Positions 23,863 to 30,512 of a stretch of 64,000 nucleotides of DNA are shown here, in pieces. Source of the DNA: Alphaproteobacteria bacterium (GTDB lineage: Bacteria > Pseudomonadota > Alphaproteobacteria > JAVJVX01); NCBI GenBank assembly GCA_040220875.1, contig JAVJVX010000005.1, positions 62,001 to 126,000 on the forward strand. Reading direction: 5' to 3'. Position 1 is the stretch's first letter, and the number at the start of each line of letters is the position of its first letter. Position numbers and translations under genes: made by a program. The notes below the pieces were generated by a model. It was not told where the DNA came from. It saw nothing but the letters and a program-made list of their open reading frames with translations, and ran no database searches.

Positions 23863-25653
23863 CTAATAATAGGCGCGCAGGGTGAAGAAGACCCGCGGGT
23901 CGTCACCAGCGCTGCCCTCGGCGAAGACCGGCCGGGTCAATGGCTGGGCGCCCTCCACCGTGGCGTAAAGATGGGCGCCGAGCCCCAGGCGCAGGCCGGC
24001 CCCCGCGGATGCCATCGACTGCCGCCCGAGCCCGCCTTTGAGCCAGGTCGCGCCGACATCATAGAACCCGTAAAAGGTCACGCCCGTGAGATAAGGCTCC
24101 CAGGCGGGTGCGTCCAGTTGCAGCTCGACCTCGGTTCCAACGCCGTCATCGCCGAGAATTTCCGACGGGTCGTAGGCGCGGCCAAAACGGCTGCCGCCAA
24201 ATCCCGCGAGTTCCGATTCCAGCAGGCGATGGGCCGCCCACTGGCCGCGCGCCGCCCAGTAAAGGCCGACACGCTCCCAGAACCGCTGGTAACGGGACAG
24301 GAACACCGTCGCCTTGGTGAAATCCGACCGTCCCCGAAAGCGGCTCAGATTGAGGCCGTCACGGCCAGAGGCGCCGAAGGCGTCGAGGCCCTGACTGATT
24401 TCGAAACTGGCGCTGAGATCTGCGTCCCACGGATCGCGCGTCCCGTAATACAGGCCAAGCCCGAGGACACGGTGATGGTCCTTGAACAGACGCAGCTCTT
24501 CGAAGCGCTCGCTGTCGGTATCGCGATAGGTGAACCGGCCATTGAAATAAAGGTTTTCCGACCGGGAGCGAATGATCGGGTAGGAAAGGCCGAGCTCGAA
24601 CCGAAGGCTGACATTTTCCACGCCGAGATTTTCCAGTGTAAAACCCGGCTCACTGTCGCCGTGGCTGGCGGCGAAGCTCGCCACCAGCCCGTCGCCGCCC
24701 AGGGGCTGGCGGTAGAAGAGACTGGCAAACCGGAGCTCTTCGGTCTGGGTTACCGTAACGTAGCGCACATCGACACTCTCGTAGAAACCCAGCGGCGAGT
24801 TCAGCGTCACCCCGCCCCAAAGCTGAAAGCGCCCGTTGAAGCGGGTTCCCCGATTGTCGAACTGCACGAAGCCGGAACTGTCGCGATGTTCCATCAGCAG
24901 CACGAGGTTAAAGGCCCCCTCGCCTGTTTCCGATGGTTCGACGAGCGGCCGGACCGTAGCGCCCGCCAGGTCGGAAACGAGCAGCACGGCGCGCTCCAGC
25001 TCGCGATTGCCAATGGGCGCCCTGCCGGTGATTGCCCTGAGGTAGGATTCGATCAGCGCGGCCGAGCCCTCGACCTGGCCCTCGATCACGATATTGTCGA
25101 TATATCCCTCGATCGCGCGGAGCGTGACGCTACCGGCCACGGGATCGGTGTCCTGCAGCGCACCCCGGCTGAGCGAATAGCCTTTTTCACGGTAGAGCCG
25201 TGTCAGCGCCGCCAAAGCCTCATTGAGGCGCGCGGGCGTAAGTTCTCTGCCAACCAGCAAATCCGCCAACATCTCGCGATCTGCATCGGTCAAAATACTG
25301 GCGCCCTGGATTTGGAGCGACTTGACCGTGAAGCCGAGCGCCGTGTCCGGCACCCCCGGCGCCGGCCCGGTCGGCGCCATGTCCGGGCCGGTGGGCATCG
25401 GTCGGGTCGGTTCGACCGCGAAGCGCTTGTCGATCTGGCCGGGTGAGGCAGAGTTGACCGCCTGCTGCGCCATGGCCGGGACCGCCTCGAGGAGGGCGAG
25501 GCAGAGAGCGAGAGCCAGGCCACAGACCCGGCGGGCCGCCCGACCCGGCGGTTTTTCGGGACTTTTCCGGCCGGGGCCGCCGGGCAGAGAAAAGGTCTTA
25601 CCGAAAAACCGCAGAAAAACGCGCCCTACACGGCCATGCGCACGGTTAACCAT
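23863..25653 (-). CDS. TpsB/FhaC/ShlB-type outer-membrane transporter with POTRA domain
   Basis: Outer-membrane partner of a two-partner secretion system, 596 residues. After a signal peptide (hydrophobic LALALCLALLEAVPAMA near residues 45-61, behind a long basic N-region) comes a POTRA_2-like domain (about 110-250: LQIQGASILTDADREML, then RLYREKGYSLSRGAL and RAIEGYIDNIVIEG). A 16-strand-barrel region runs to the end, finishing FFTLRAYY with a terminal aromatic. The ATG is preceded by GGGGGGAAT. It is divergent from the FecR-domain protein, the obvious candidate cargo; no classic TpsA with a haemagglutination domain is nearby. Confidence 0.85.
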   Translation of the reverse strand: MVNRAHGRVGRVFLRFFGKTFSLPGGPGRKSPEKPPGRAARRVCGLALALCLALLEAVPAMAQQAVNSASPGQIDKRFAVEPTRPMPTGPDMAPTGPAPGVPDTALGFTVKSLQIQGASILTDADREMLADLLVGRELTPARLNEALAALTRLYREKGYSLSRGALQDTDPVAGSVTLRAIEGYIDNIVIEGQVEGSAALIESYLRAITGRAPIGNRELERAVLLVSDLAGATVRPLVEPSETGEGAFNLVLLMEHRDSSGFVQFDNRGTRFNGRFQLWGGVTLNSPLGFYESVDVRYVTVTQTEELRFASLFYRQPLGGDGLVASFAASHGDSEPGFTLENLGVENVSLRFELGLSYPIIRSRSENLYFNGRFTYRDTDSERFEELRLFKDHHRVLGLGLYYGTRDPWDADLSASFEISQGLDAFGASGRDGLNLSRFRGRSDFTKATVFLSRYQRFWERVGLYWAARGQWAAHRLLESELAGFGGSRFGRAYDPSEILGDDGVGTEVELQLDAPAWEPYLTGVTFYGFYDVGATWLKGGLGRQSMASAGAGLRLGLGAHLYATVEGAQPLTRPVFAEGSAGDDPRVFFTLRAYY

Positions 25654-26000
25654 ATTCCCCCCAAAATTGGCGCGCCCGGGCCAAGCCTCCGTCCCGGTCT
25701 TTAACCGCGCCGGCCCCCCGACCGGGCCGCCAGCCTAGTCGCCGGCCCCTGACAAAGGGTTAACCACGAGTCCCCTTTTCCGTGGCGCCGCGCCGCGCCC
25801 AAATCTTAAGGCCGGGATTTATATAAAATTTTAGATAAATGAATATTAAATAAGTAAATACTTTTCGTAAACTAGTAATAAAAATACGAATTATTTTATT
25901 TTGACTGCATAGCGTGTTTTCCCCTTTTTTGGTGGAGCGGTCGGACCCGGCGCGGCCTGGCCAGACCGAGTACTGCCAGACCGAGTACTGGAGGAAAACG
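25654..26000. other. Divergent intergenic region with AT-rich island
   Basis: A gene-free stretch of 347 bases between the transporter and the FecR-domain protein. Positions 25816-25911 are strikingly AT-rich compared with everything around, with an imperfect inverted repeat AATAAAA/TTTTATT (25877-25883 and 25894-25900). Near the FecR gene lies a perfect 15-bp tandem duplication. It probably carries both divergent promoters, but no single -35/-10 pair stands out. Confidence 0.6.
25961..25990 (+). repeat. 15-bp perfect tandem duplication before the FecR-domain gene
   Basis: CCAGACCGAGTACTG occurs twice head to tail, ending at the start of the GGAGG ribosome binding site (25990-25994). It would lie in the 5' leader. 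Confidence 0.85.
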
Positions 26001-27644
26001 ATGCGGTTCCTTTGCCGAGATCAGAACACCGGTTCCCGCGCCATCCTGCGGGATGGCGCCGGGCACCTGCGGATGGCGCTCGCCACCGCCTGGCTGGTGG
26101 CTCTGCTGGTGGCCGGCCAGACGGCTCTCGCGGCCGATCCCGCCTGGCAGGTCCAGAGCGTCGACGGCACAGGGACGATCACGCGCGCCGACGGCGTGCG
26201 CCTGGCGCTGGAGCCGGGCGCGGTCCTTGGCGGCGGCGATGAAATTGCGACCGATGCCGATACCCGGGCCGTGCTCACCCACGGCACCTCCAGGATCACC
26301 CTCAGCCCCCGGACAAAGCTTACTCTGCCCAAGACAGCCGAGGCCGGCACCGCGTACCGGATCGTGCAAAGCATCGGGTCCGCAATCTACAAGGTGAAGC
26401 AGCGCGCGGCCGAGCTCAAGGATTTCGGCGTCGAGACGCCCTTTCTCGCCGCCGTGGTGAAAGGCACGACCTTTCGCGTCGACGCGGCGAGCGACAATGC
26501 CAGTGTTCGCGTAACCGAAGGCCTCGTGGCCGTGGCCTCGCCCCTGACGACCGGCAATGGTCTGTTGAGCGCCGGCGATGTGGCCCGAATCCACAACTCG
26601 CCAGGCGCGACACTCCAGATCGAGCGCCAGGATGCCACAAACCCGCCAGCCGGCGGCACCGCGGCCGGCCAACTGGCCGACAAGGACGGCGACGACAATG
26701 ACGACACGGCGGCCAAGGAGAAGGTCGGCGCCGGGCAGGCCGTGTCGGCCGCGGAGAAGAAGGGCAAGGACGCGGCCGCTTCCGGCTCCAGGATCAAGAT
26801 CCGGAACAATGGCCGGACAATTCGCGCCGTGAGCGAGAAATACTCCCACGCCGCCACGATCCTGATGAACGCCAAGCCGGGAGACATTTTCCCCGGCGAG
26901 TTCAGCCTCGCGGCCTTCGTCGACGCGGGCGACGGGCGCAAGACCGGCGAACGGCGGGCGGGCGACCGCGCCGGCGCCCGCGGAACCGGCACGAATGGCC
27001 TCGGACATGGCCCTAAAAACGGCCTCGGAACGGGCGGCATTAAGGGCTCGGAAAGCGGTGTCGGGCAGGCTGTATCCGTTGGCCAGGGCACCAGCGGCCT
27101 CGGTTCCGGCGGCAATGCCGGCGGCAACGGCAACGGCGGGGGCAATGGCAATGGCAATGGCAATGTCGGTGGCCTTGGCGGCGGAAACAGCAACGCCGGC
27201 GGCAACGGCCTGGGTGCCGGCAACGGCGCCGGCAATGGCAATGGCAACGTCGGCCTTGGCGGCGGAAACAGCAACGCCGGCGGCAACGGCCTGGGTGCGG
27301 GCAACAGCGCCGGCAATGGCAATGGCAATGGCAATGTCGGTGGCCTTGGCAGCGGAAACAGCAACGCCGGCGGCAACGGCCTGGGTGCTGGCAACGGCCT
27401 GGGTGCCGGCAACGGCGCCGGCAATGGCAACGGCAACGGCAACGTCGGCGGCCTTGGCGGCGGAAACAGCAACGCCGGCGGCAACGCGCAGACTGGCTTC
27501 AATGGCCATGGCAACAGCAACAGCAATGGCAATGGCGGCCTCGGCAACCCGGGAGGTGGCCCGGGAGGTGGCAATAGCAACCCCGGCAATGGCAACGGTG
27601 GCGGGGGCAACGGTGGCAATGGCAATGGCAATGGCAAGGGCTGA
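26001..27644 (+). CDS. Secreted FecR-domain protein with Gly/Asn-rich repeat tail
   Basis: Exported protein of 547 residues; the ATG at 26001 follows GGAGGAAAACG. A signal peptide (MALATAWLVALLVAGQTALA, about residues 25-44) precedes a FecR-like domain (about 45-190). That domain has a VETPFLAAVVKGTTF core and ends in VRVTEGLVAVASPL, typical of FecR domains in secreted proteins rather than the anti-sigma FecR itself. A charged linker with repeated Asp, Lys and Ala follows, then from about residue 330 a tail almost wholly of Gly, Asn, Ala and Leu in near-repeats of about 30 residues. No TPS haemagglutination motif was seen. It may be the cargo of the divergent TpsB-like protein; this is inference. 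Confidence 0.82.
   Translation: MRFLCRDQNTGSRAILRDGAGHLRMALATAWLVALLVAGQTALAADPAWQVQSVDGTGTITRADGVRLALEPGAVLGGGDEIATDADTRAVLTHGTSRITLSPRTKLTLPKTAEAGTAYRIVQSIGSAIYKVKQRAAELKDFGVETPFLAAVVKGTTFRVDAASDNASVRVTEGLVAVASPLTTGNGLLSAGDVARIHNSPGATLQIERQDATNPPAGGTAAGQLADKDGDDNDDTAAKEKVGAGQAVSAAEKKGKDAAASGSRIKIRNNGRTIRAVSEKYSHAATILMNAKPGDIFPGEFSLAAFVDAGDGRKTGERRAGDRAGARGTGTNGLGHGPKNGLGTGGIKGSESGVGQAVSVGQGTSGLGSGGNAGGNGNGGGNGNGNGNVGGLGGGNSNAGGNGLGAGNGAGNGNGNVGLGGGNSNAGGNGLGAGNSAGNGNGNGNVGGLGSGNSNAGGNGLGAGNGLGAGNGAGNGNGNGNVGGLGGGNSNAGGNAQTGFNGHGNSNSNGNGGLGNPGGGPGGGNSNPGNGNGGGGNGGNGNGNGKG
27162..27500 (+). repeat. Coding tandem repeats in the FecR-domain protein
   Basis: Four successive near-copies begin at 27162, 27246, 27333 and 27441, with spacings of 84, 87 and 108 bases. 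Each starts N-V-G-(G)-L-G-x-G-N-S-N-A-G-G-N and the third carries an extra NGLGAG insertion. All length changes are multiples of three. Degenerate GN repeats continue to the stop. Confidence 0.88.
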
Positions 27645-27698
27645 GCCCAGCGCCGGGCCGGCCTTGCCAGAATTCACCGCTCTTTCCCGGGACATCAC

Positions 27699-30512
27699 AT
27701 GACCCGAATGCGCAGGCGCAGCCCGGATGCCGGGCAGCAGGGCTGGACGCTGCACAAAGGCGGCCTTGCCGTTTTTGCCCTCTGTCTCGGCCTCGAGATA
27801 TTCGGCCTGTTTCGACCGGTTGACCGGATCTACCAGGAATTCCTTTTCGCCGCGGCCAATCGGCCGGCGTCGGGTGACCTCGTTGTCGTCGGCATCGACA
27901 GTAAGAGCCTCGGCGAGATGGCCGTATGGCCCTGGCCTCGCAGTGTTCACGCCGAACTGGTCCGCCGCTTGGATGCCGCCGGCGCCGTGCGCATCGGGCT
28001 CGACATCGATTTCAGCTCACCCTCGCGCGAGAATGAAGACGCCGCCCTGGCCGCGGCCCTGGCCGAGGCGGAAGCCCAGATCGTCCTCCCGGGCCACCGC
28101 CAGACACGCTGGGCAAGCGATAGCCTGATCGACCTGACATACACGAAGCCGCTACCGGCCCTGATGGCTCACGCCAGCCTGGCCACTGTTTCCATCATGC
28201 CCGACGCCGACGGGCGGGTCCTCGCGATCCAACCCTTTGAGACCTGGCCCTCCGGGCTGGTCCCGTCCTTTCCGGTAGCATTGGCCGGCCGGCTGATCCT
28301 CGACCCCGCGCCGCTCGGGATCGACTTTTCGATTGATCACGGCACGCTGCCGCGGCTGTCCTATGCCGATGTGCTCAATGGTAATTTCGAGCCGGCCCAG
28401 ATTGCCGGCAAGACGGTCATCGTCGGTGCCACCGCCATCGAGCTGGGTGACCGCATCCCGGTGCCGCGCTGGAAAGTTATCCCGGGCCCCGAATTTCAGG
28501 CCATCGCACTGGAAACGATCCTCCAGAACCGGGTGCTGGCGACGGTCCCCTTTGCCGCCTACGCGATTTTCCTGCTTCTCGTCGCGCTTGCCTTCTCGGC
28601 CATCTTCCAGCGTGTGCGCGGGTCGACTGCCATCGTCGTCTCGATCGCCGCCATCGCGGTCCTCCTGACCGGCAGCGCGTTTCTTTATCTTGGCGCCAGC
28701 ACCCTGACGCCGCAGGCGGCGGTCATCGCCGAAATTTTCCTGGTCATGGGATTTGCCTTTGCGGGACGGGTGGACTGGCAGAGCGTCAAGCTCATGGCGC
28801 AATCGGTGGCTCTTACGAAGAGCCGAAACTTCGCCCGCGAGGTCGTCGATGCCAGTCTGGACGCGATCATCGTGCTGAACGAGGATCTGCGGCTCGAAAC
28901 CCTTAATCCTGCCGCCATTCAACTGCTCGGGCTCGAAAACCGGGAATTTCGCGGCAATCACGTGAGCACGATCTTCCCCAATTTCGGGGCTGTCCGCCTG
29001 GCGCCCGGCGAACGGTTCTCGGGACGGCGGATCTCGGTGGCGCAGCGGGCGGACGGCAGCCAGGTTTCGGTGGAATTGGCGATCCAGCCGGCCGAGATGG
29101 AGCAGGGCCGGCGGTATGTCGCCTTCGCCCGGGACATTACGGAGCGGCTGAAGCGCGAGGCGCAGCTCGAACATCAGGCCCTGCACGACGCCCTTACGGA
29201 TCTACCCAACCGGACCTTCTTGTTTCAGCGCATGGGAACGGTCCGCGAGATGACCGACGAAGAGAGCGGAAGCTTCGCGGTCCTGTTGCTCGACCTTGAC
29301 CGCTTCAAGGAAGTCAATGACACACTCGGCCATCATGTGGGAGACGTCCTCCTGCGCATGGTCTGCGACAGGCTGAGTGACACGTTGAGCCGGGACGACG
29401 TTCTGGCCCGCATCGGGGGCGACGAATTTGCGGTACTTCTGCCCGGTGCGAACGAAGTTCGGGCAGCCGCGGTGGCCAAGACGGTCGGCGCGGCGCTGGA
29501 TGCGCCTTTCGAGTGCGAGGGTTACACATTGACCGTAGGGGTCAGCGTCGGAATCACCCTTTACCCGCAGCACGGAAATCTGCCTTCTGAGCTGTTGCGG
29601 AAAGCCGATGTCGCGATGTACCTCGCGAAAGAACTGCGCCACCCTTACGAGTTCTACGATCCCGATCGGGACAGGAACAGCGTTCGCAACCTGACCCTGA
29701 TGGGCGAGCTGCGATCGGCCCTGGAGCAGGACCAGCTCGACCTGCATTACCAGCCCAAGATTTCTCTTGAAAACGACAGGATTTACGGCGTCGAGGCGCT
29801 GCTGCGCTGGACTCACCCGCGACTCGGCTTCATTGCGCCTGACGAGTTCATCGGCATGGCCGAACAATCCGGCCTGATCGATCAGTTGACCGACTGGGTT
29901 CTGATGCGCGCGCTTCGTGATCTCGAGCAGTTCGATGAAACGGCAGCGCCGCTCAACATGGCCATCAACTTGTCCACGCGAAGCCTCCTCGATATCGGCC
30001 TGCCGAAACGTATTCGGAACGCGCTGACAAAATGCAATGTGGATGCCGGCCGGATCACGCTTGAAATCACCGAAAGCGCGATCATGCAAGACCCGGCCTC
30101 GTCGCGCCGCGTGATCGAGGAGCTGGACCGGTTGGGAGTGAGGCTGGCGATCGACGATTTCGGGACGGGGTATTCATCGCTTGCCTATCTGAAGCAACTT
30201 CCGGTCGATGAGATCAAAATCGACAAGTCCTTCGTCCTCGACATGGAAACCAACGAAAACGACCGCGTGATCGTCAAATCCACTGTGGAGCTCGCCCACA
30301 ACCTGGGGCTGGCGGCGGTCGCCGAAGGCATCGAGACGGCCGGCGTCGTGGACACGCTCAAGAGCTGGGGATGCGACATCGGACAGGGTTATTTTTACAG
30401 CAAGGCGCTCGGTGTGGCCGATCTCCTGGCCTGGAACCGGGCACGGGCCAACGGCGCCGACGACGGGACGCCCGATTCCGGCGACGCCGTACCGTTCCTG
30501 CGGACCGCCTAG
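27699..30512 (+). CDS. CHASE2-PAS-GGDEF-EAL cyclic-di-GMP enzyme
   Basis: Membrane-bound signalling protein of 937 residues. An N-terminal membrane segment (about 22-40) leads to a periplasmic CHASE2 sensor domain (about 45-275), followed by about three membrane helices (285-360). A PAS domain (about 385-490) comes next, then a diguanylate cyclase domain with intact GGDEF at residues 573-577. The phosphodiesterase domain has EAL at 699-701, DDFGTGYSSLAYL and KIDKSFV. Both catalytic halves look complete, so net activity cannot be predicted. It lies 54 bases after the FecR-domain gene on the same strand, so the sensor probably serves that surface system. Confidence 0.93.
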   Translation: MTRMRRRSPDAGQQGWTLHKGGLAVFALCLGLEIFGLFRPVDRIYQEFLFAAANRPASGDLVVVGIDSKSLGEMAVWPWPRSVHAELVRRLDAAGAVRIGLDIDFSSPSRENEDAALAAALAEAEAQIVLPGHRQTRWASDSLIDLTYTKPLPALMAHASLATVSIMPDADGRVLAIQPFETWPSGLVPSFPVALAGRLILDPAPLGIDFSIDHGTLPRLSYADVLNGNFEPAQIAGKTVIVGATAIELGDRIPVPRWKVIPGPEFQAIALETILQNRVLATVPFAAYAIFLLLVALAFSAIFQRVRGSTAIVVSIAAIAVLLTGSAFLYLGASTLTPQAAVIAEIFLVMGFAFAGRVDWQSVKLMAQSVALTKSRNFAREVVDASLDAIIVLNEDLRLETLNPAAIQLLGLENREFRGNHVSTIFPNFGAVRLAPGERFSGRRISVAQRADGSQVSVELAIQPAEMEQGRRYVAFARDITERLKREAQLEHQALHDALTDLPNRTFLFQRMGTVREMTDEESGSFAVLLLDLDRFKEVNDTLGHHVGDVLLRMVCDRLSDTLSRDDVLARIGGDEFAVLLPGANEVRAAAVAKTVGAALDAPFECEGYTLTVGVSVGITLYPQHGNLPSELLRKADVAMYLAKELRHPYEFYDPDRDRNSVRNLTLMGELRSALEQDQLDLHYQPKISLENDRIYGVEALLRWTHPRLGFIAPDEFIGMAEQSGLIDQLTDWVLMRALRDLEQFDETAAPLNMAINLSTRSLLDIGLPKRIRNALTKCNVDAGRITLEITESAIMQDPASSRRVIEELDRLGVRLAIDDFGTGYSSLAYLKQLPVDEIKIDKSFVLDMETNENDRVIVKSTVELAHNLGLAAVAEGIETAGVVDTLKSWGCDIGQGYFYSKALGVADLLAWNRARANGADDGTPDSGDAVPFLRTA

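Follow-up and report, generated by a model that had tools for sequence, protein, structure and literature searches.

What does a TpsB-type outer-membrane protein do when the gene beside it encodes a FecR-domain protein instead of a TpsA exoprotein? This question is raised by a locus in an alphaproteobacterial contig, of which a stretch of 64,000 nucleotides (hereafter, the window) was analysed. Here, a gene for a TpsB-type protein is divergent from a gene for a secreted FecR-domain protein, and a CHASE2 sensor gene follows the latter. An earlier, sequence-only reading had proposed the FecR protein as the cargo of TpsB, in a non-classical two-partner secretion system under c-di-GMP control.

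The three genes and their products

Pfam searches, structural models and coordinates bore out the gene content described in the sequence-only reading: an FhaC/ShlB-like TpsB, a divergent FecR protein with a Gly/Asn tail and a CHASE2-PAS-GGDEF-EAL protein, with exactly 54 bases between the stop codon of the FecR gene and the start of the CHASE2 gene (Table 1). Unrelated genes flank the set on both sides, namely tRNA-Val and feoAB beyond TpsB and an SRAP gene beyond the sensor. In the entire host genome (2.54 Mb, 99% complete), domain searches found one ShlB-type protein and one FecR domain. No ECF sigma factor was present among the scanned neighbours of the window FecR gene (Pfam).

Table 1. 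Features of the TpsB-FecR-CHASE2 locus (positions within the window)
Feature	Position	Strand	Basis or remark
TpsB-type (ShlB/FhaC/CdiB family) outer-membrane protein gene	23863-25653	-	ORF of 596 aa; Pfam, AlphaFold, Foldseek
Divergent intergenic region, TpsB/FecR	25654-26000	.	deep A+T-rich patch at ~25800-25910; presumed divergent promoters
FecR-domain protein gene	26001-27644	+	signal peptide (~residues 1-45), FecR domain, low-complexity Gly/Asn tail
FecR domain, conserved core of the FecR protein	26142-26588	+	purpose-built HMM (E 2e-60); alignment of 43 relatives
Gly/Asn-rich repeat tail of the FecR protein	27093-27641	+	tandem repeats; tail composition across 42 relatives
CHASE2-PAS-GGDEF-EAL inner-membrane sensor gene	27699-30512	+	937 aa; Pfam; motifs

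The window TpsB was matched by the Pfam families ShlB (E 7e-24) and POTRA_2 (E 1e-13). Its layout comprises a signal peptide, a short helix, a Pro-rich linker, two POTRAs and a 16-strand barrel, and the AlphaFold model (mean pLDDT 83) contained both POTRAs and the complete barrel. This model matched CdiB (6wim, Foldseek E 9e-34) and also FhaC, and the profile agreed. The start codon is uncertain because the signal peptide begins about 40 residues into the ORF (region 25653-25540), and the annotated ORF start may be too early. The protein retains the residues found in TPS-linked TpsBs too, among them the loop-6 motif around R492.

The ORF of the FecR gene was listed from a GTG at 25914, and translation is likely to start at the ATG at 26001, which lies behind a GGAGG. 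Its product carries a signal peptide, a single FecR domain (PF04773, E 1.5e-8) and the Gly/Asn tail, whose tandem repeats have periods of 81 and 108 bp; a cytoplasmic anti-sigma segment is absent. Pfam found no LysM domain on this protein, no response regulator gene upstream of it and no TPR in the window proteins. The AlphaFold model of the FecR domain (mean pLDDT 81.5) resembled the periplasmic cell-surface signalling domain of PupR (6ovk, Foldseek E 2e-6, Z 16.4) and an anti-sigma factor (4m0n, Z 16.7). The next structural match was a cell-surface anchoring domain (5ix9, Z 6.9), a resemblance that may reflect only a common arrangement, and neither a TPS domain nor a TPS-like beta-helix occurred among the listed matches. 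In all FecR relatives examined, a signal peptide precedes the FecR domain (about 145 residues), and a low-complexity tail follows unless the contig ends first. The tails are 110-590 residues long and mostly Gly/Asn-rich, with Pro/Glu- or Asp-rich composition in some TpsB-linked members.

As for the sensor, its CHASE2, PAS, GGDEF and EAL domains all scored far above the Pfam cut-offs, and the catalytic motifs of GGDEF and EAL were present on inspection. The protein is thus predicted to make and/or break c-di-GMP.

Within the intergenic region, a tandem 15-bp repeat, GCCAGACCGAGTACT, was observed at 25960-25990, immediately 5' of the ribosome-binding site of the FecR gene. The A+T-rich patch listed in Table 1 has counterparts elsewhere: in nearly all of the 42 FecR-linked sets described below, the 100-mer of lowest G+C content in the locus lies between TpsB and FecR, and the patch is deeper in FecR-linked sets than upstream of other TpsBs (p 0.007).

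Conservation of the three-gene set

We surveyed 96 genomes of the same class, picked as relatives and each from a different listed family. TpsB relatives were present in 22 of them, and the arrangement TpsB ← → FecR → CHASE2 was found in four (that of the window, G009, G012 and G093), so that FecR-linked proteins made up 4 of the 29 TpsB places in this survey. A stretch of G093 (L174:2392-5406) holds an ORF of 1005 aa with a FecR domain close to its start, and no match to CHASE2 or TpsB occurred in the fetched sequence. A wider scan, in which an alignment of these four FecR-linked TpsBs was run against 84,980 species, yielded 71 loci, which were typed with purpose-built profiles for TpsB, FecR, CHASE2 and TPS. 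Over all fetched loci, 43 TpsBs adjoin a FecR gene, 43 of 43 divergently, and 39 have CHASE2 in reach, contig ends accounting for the other four.

After removal of near-copies, a FecR domain within 2.5 kb, always divergent, accompanied 42 of 97 TpsBs (window included), a proportion that is not a natural frequency because the scan was seeded with FecR-linked TpsBs. CHASE2 was within reach in 38 of these 42 sets, and the other four are on contigs that end before it. The set thus recurs in the same geometry around 41 TpsBs besides that of the window and never with a TPS neighbour. It is spread across the Alphaproteobacteria (Sphingomonadaceae, Parvularculaceae, Hyphomicrobiales, Rhodospirillales and others), with hosts including Sphingomonas, Novosphingobium, Sphingorhabdus, Marinicaulis, Parvularcula, Hwanghaeella, Methyloligella and Desertibaculum, and it was also found on a Bosea plasmid.

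The window alone offers gene order only, and three unrelated neighbours could in principle stand in this order by chance. However, an identical geometry in 42 of 42 cases, many of them with less than 35% TpsB identity, in several orders and families and on a plasmid, makes the chance of a meaningless gene order negligible. The earlier proposal that the three genes belong together was therefore upheld by this fixed arrangement.

Many FecR-linked TpsBs are less than 35% identical to the window TpsB, which shares at most 38% identity with any other. Together with the long branches of the tree, such low identities indicate an old association. On the maximum-likelihood tree of TpsB, the FecR label required three changes, compared with 31.7 in shuffles, and the FecR-linked TpsBs were separate from the TPS-linked ones. 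The window TpsB belongs to a group of 31 rows (SH-aLRT 97), 30 of which are FecR-linked while the remaining one is at a contig edge. When all FecR-linked TpsBs were held as one clade, the lnL was 7.8 higher than that of the free search (p-AU 0.63); a single origin of these proteins is thus compatible with the sequences and mildly favoured by them. Partial correlations of distances, with the third protein controlled, were 0.48 for FecR-TpsB, 0.27 for FecR-CHASE2 and 0.51 for TpsB-CHASE2. These values agree with a unit of three, may also stem from shared ancestry, and do not separate a relay, export or a mixed form of the two.

One locus (L094:3299-10737) contains two tandem TpsB-FecR pairs, only one of which adjoins CHASE2, so these two genes can be duplicated together as a unit.

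The output of the CHASE2 protein varies among the sets. Of 38 sets, 25 have a histidine kinase, seven an EAL with no GGDEF recognised and four, including the window, GGDEF plus EAL; two were cut short or split. Output domains are thus swapped while FecR and CHASE2 stay, and the conserved feature is CHASE2 adjoining FecR, not c-di-GMP. The c-di-GMP control suggested by the sequence-only reading fits the GGDEF-EAL sensor of the window, but it was ruled out as the common output by the kinases of the majority.

Candidate partners of the TpsB protein

No TpsA with a haemagglutination domain had been noticed beside the locus, and this absence extends to the entire genome of the window, in which PF05860 (TPS/FHA domain) had no match. 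As the same search was positive in 16 of 22 relatives, the null result is sound, and a hidden TpsA in this genome was rejected. Neither a TpsA gene elsewhere in the genome nor a lack of conservation of the three genes, the two findings that the sequence-only reading had named as contrary to it, emerged when both were examined. Profile searches detected no TPS neighbour of TpsB in any FecR-linked set. Among the 36 other genomes with the set, some of which are incomplete assemblies, PF05860 was absent from 27, and about 20 of these PF05860-less genomes have a single ShlB. No TPS protein was found anywhere in G093, and both G009 and G012 possess, alongside the FecR-linked TpsB, a second TpsB next to a true TPS protein.

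It might be supposed that a TpsA, classical or divergent, is encoded elsewhere and uses the window TpsB, the FecR-CHASE2 pair being a separate sensor kept alongside. A true TPS pair does occur in 9 of the 36 genomes with the set, as well as in G009 and G012, and TPS proteins may lack a recognisable PF05860 domain. However, existing TpsAs usually adjoin their own TpsB, the domain is missing from the window genome and from three quarters of the others (27 of 36), and the FecR-linked TpsBs are phylogenetically apart from those linked to TPS proteins. A distant TpsA is, in our opinion, quite improbable.

An all-against-all comparison of the sequences within 9 kb on either side of the sets revealed no fourth conserved gene. 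All that it returned were paralogues of the kinase domain, a split EAL and ORFs that are probably antisense, and a fourth gene as the true cargo was discarded. With neither a conserved fourth gene nor a TPS protein, TpsB has no local candidate partner other than the FecR protein, and this part of the earlier proposal stands.

Whether the FecR protein is cargo is a different matter. In a non-classical two-partner secretion system, TpsB would export the whole FecR protein to the surface, and CHASE2 would merely regulate or monitor the process. In favour of such export, the FecR gene alone is conserved as a neighbour of what looks like an intact exporter, most genomes with the set have no TPS protein, a beta-rich domain comes straight after the signal peptide, as it does in TpsA proteins, the tails are repetitive, and the second TpsB-FecR pair of L094 has no CHASE2 of its own. 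On the other hand, the FecR fold matches periplasmic signalling domains, with no TPS domain among the matches, and FecR-CHASE2 pairs with the same tail occur with no TpsB detected, either in the genome (G086) or adjoining (Rhizobium plasmids). The FecR domain is also fused to a barrel in NsrA of Sinorhizobium meliloti and to LysM in Burkholderia, and both arrangements keep FecR in the periplasm. In addition, TPS-type TpsBs usually have PGA[AS]xL near the end of POTRA2, and A/S/T at a position where most FecR-type proteins have an aromatic residue or His, without PGA; the alignment is gapped there, and a class difference is suggested as a lead. Export of FecR by TpsB was weakened by these observations and we regard it as unlikely, although it keeps some credit, given a TpsB with the look of a functional exporter and a tail that could well serve as a surface segment.

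The FecR-CHASE2 pairs without TpsB bear on the history of the set as well. They were found in G001, G086 and G087, where the TpsB search of the genome returned nothing, and on Rhizobium plasmids without an adjoining TpsB; the FecR proteins of G086 and Rhizobium sp. BG4 bear Gly/Asn- or Gly/Ser/Asn-rich tails. Such pairs show that FecR-CHASE2 is the core of the system and TpsB an added part. Two further ideas were abandoned. The Gly/Asn tail is not a general signature of export by TpsB, since the same tail is present in G086, for which the TpsB search was negative, and some TpsB-linked tails differ. FecR domains as adhesin retention modules in the giant ORFs of G001 were also rejected, the FecR HMM having found nothing in two fetched stretches.

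CHASE2 cyclases adjoin other TpsBs too, in a second lineage. In two loci of the Azospirillum type (L069 and L171), a secreted protein of about 235 aa, a CHASE2-adenylate cyclase and TpsB are encoded in one row, which in L069 continues with a TPS/FHA protein after TpsB. A relationship of the 235-aa protein to FecR was rejected, as hhalign gave nothing (probability 0.1%). In L115 and L116, TpsB is divergent from a TPR-CHAT protein, an ORF of about 240 aa and a CHASE2-adenylate cyclase; L108, L114, L118, L119, L126 and L162 have a similar layout, and a TPS protein follows TpsB in L115 and L119. In L144 (7524-9599 and 9791-11503), a CHASE2-adenylate cyclase is directly divergent from a classical TpsB/TpsA pair.

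A proposed relay and its relation to known systems

We consider it reasonably probable that the three proteins form a relay that runs from TpsB at the cell surface through a periplasmic FecR, placed between POTRA and CHASE2, to c-di-GMP as the output in this organism. This proposal builds on the gene set and its conservation, the folds, a TpsB subfamily compatible with a single origin, the lack of any further candidate for the cargo and the FecR domain of NsrA. We infer the contacts between the proteins, which way the signal runs, what triggers it and what the Gly/Asn tail does. The TpsB-family barrel in the outer membrane would be the surface-facing part. The periplasmic FecR protein would dock on the POTRA side of the barrel and contact the CHASE2 domain that the inner-membrane sensor exposes to the periplasm. 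A ligand or occupancy at the barrel, or a FecR tail that can no longer pass, might alter the FecR-CHASE2 contact and thereby switch the cytoplasmic output, which would be GGDEF-EAL and hence c-di-GMP here and a histidine kinase in most relatives.

The tail might be threaded through TpsB or held in it as the moving part, which is a guess. A tentative version of the relay, which we would not yet call probable, is that TpsB is an exporter turned outer-membrane sensor, with the disordered tail in or through it and the FecR domain on the POTRAs, and that CHASE2 reads occupancy or blockage of the channel. Against the relay, sequence and model show that TpsB keeps all general features of an active exporter, which a mere receptor could do without, and low-complexity tails of the lengths given above would suit a surface-exposed segment.

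If the relay is true, the input of CHASE2 in these sets is a FecR protein reporting on an outer-membrane TpsB, and the three genes offer a simple system, found in soil and marine Alphaproteobacteria, for passing surface information to c-di-GMP or a kinase. Many genes named 'hemolysin secretion/activation protein' in these bacteria would then lie outside toxin or adhesin secretion. The tail-threading version, if true, would add a new class to the known forms of trans-envelope signalling and account for what CHASE2 senses in these bacteria.

Several known systems share parts of this design. In the RcsF-BamA/OmpA stress-sensing system of Escherichia coli, a periplasmic sensor is held in an outer-membrane barrel and reports to the inner membrane, which would be analogous to the relay proposed here; TpsB and BamA are both of the Omp85 type, and RcsF is a lipoprotein with a fold unlike FecR. 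Two-partner secretion (type Vb; FhaC/FhaB, CdiB/CdiA) has in common with the window set the complete TpsB fold and its conserved residues. However, the window genome has no TPS-domain exoprotein, and in its place stands a small protein with a FecR domain and a different fold. The FecA-FecR-FecI and PupB-PupR-PupI systems share the periplasmic FecR fold and, on the proposed reading, a relay through the periplasm and an outer-membrane transporter that doubles as a surface sensor. In these systems, the FecR-type domain receives the signal from the transporter. The window set differs from them in having TpsB in place of a TonB-dependent receptor, no ECF sigma factor and no anti-sigma domain, the output residing in the CHASE2 protein.

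In the literature searched, which covered few subscription papers, no publication was found that combines a FecR domain with two-partner secretion, or CHASE2 with FhaC or with two-partner secretion. The combination of TpsB and FecR retrieved only publications that, judged by title and abstract, seemed unrelated. The TpsB-FecR-CHASE2 module appears to be undescribed in this literature.

CHASE2 itself is a common sensor domain whose ligand has been described as unknown (PMC5192318). In the BiofilmReg operon of Burkholderia and P. aeruginosa, a FecR gene is followed by a CHASE2 sensor gene in the same direction, as in the window; the Burkholderia LysM-FecR protein and CHASE2 kinase form an operon, and a regulator mutant lost biofilm production (PMC5192318). 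Unlike the window set, this operon has LysM on the FecR protein, a response regulator upstream and no gene for an outer-membrane barrel. CHASE2 cyclases of Campylobacterota have likewise been reported to cluster with a FecR-domain outer-membrane protein (PMC9239204).

Functionally, the closest precedent is NsrA-CyaK. Perception of a plant-derived signal by S. meliloti requires the outer-membrane protein NsrA, which acts together with the CHASE2 cyclases CyaK and CyaD1/D2 (PMC7529298, PMC13001267). On pSymB, a 1227-aa ORF preceding a CHASE2 cyclase gene has a FecR domain (E 2e-15) and TPR repeats and no Pfam match to ShlB or POTRA. The record is unannotated, and we assigned this ORF to NsrA by its position, size and neighbour and by its fit to the barrel reported at residues 600-1200 (PMC7529298). 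As in the window, an outer-membrane beta-barrel, a FecR domain and an inner-membrane CHASE2 transducer are encoded side by side, with a nucleotide second messenger as the output. The two systems differ in that FecR, TPR and barrel form one polypeptide in NsrA, whereas FecR and the TpsB barrel are separate in the window set, and in that the output is cAMP from an adenylate cyclase there, and c-di-GMP through GGDEF-EAL or, in most relatives, a histidine kinase here. The best reading of the module is a variant of FecR/CHASE2-based trans-envelope signalling, namely a split, TpsB-based version of the NsrA-CyaK relay.
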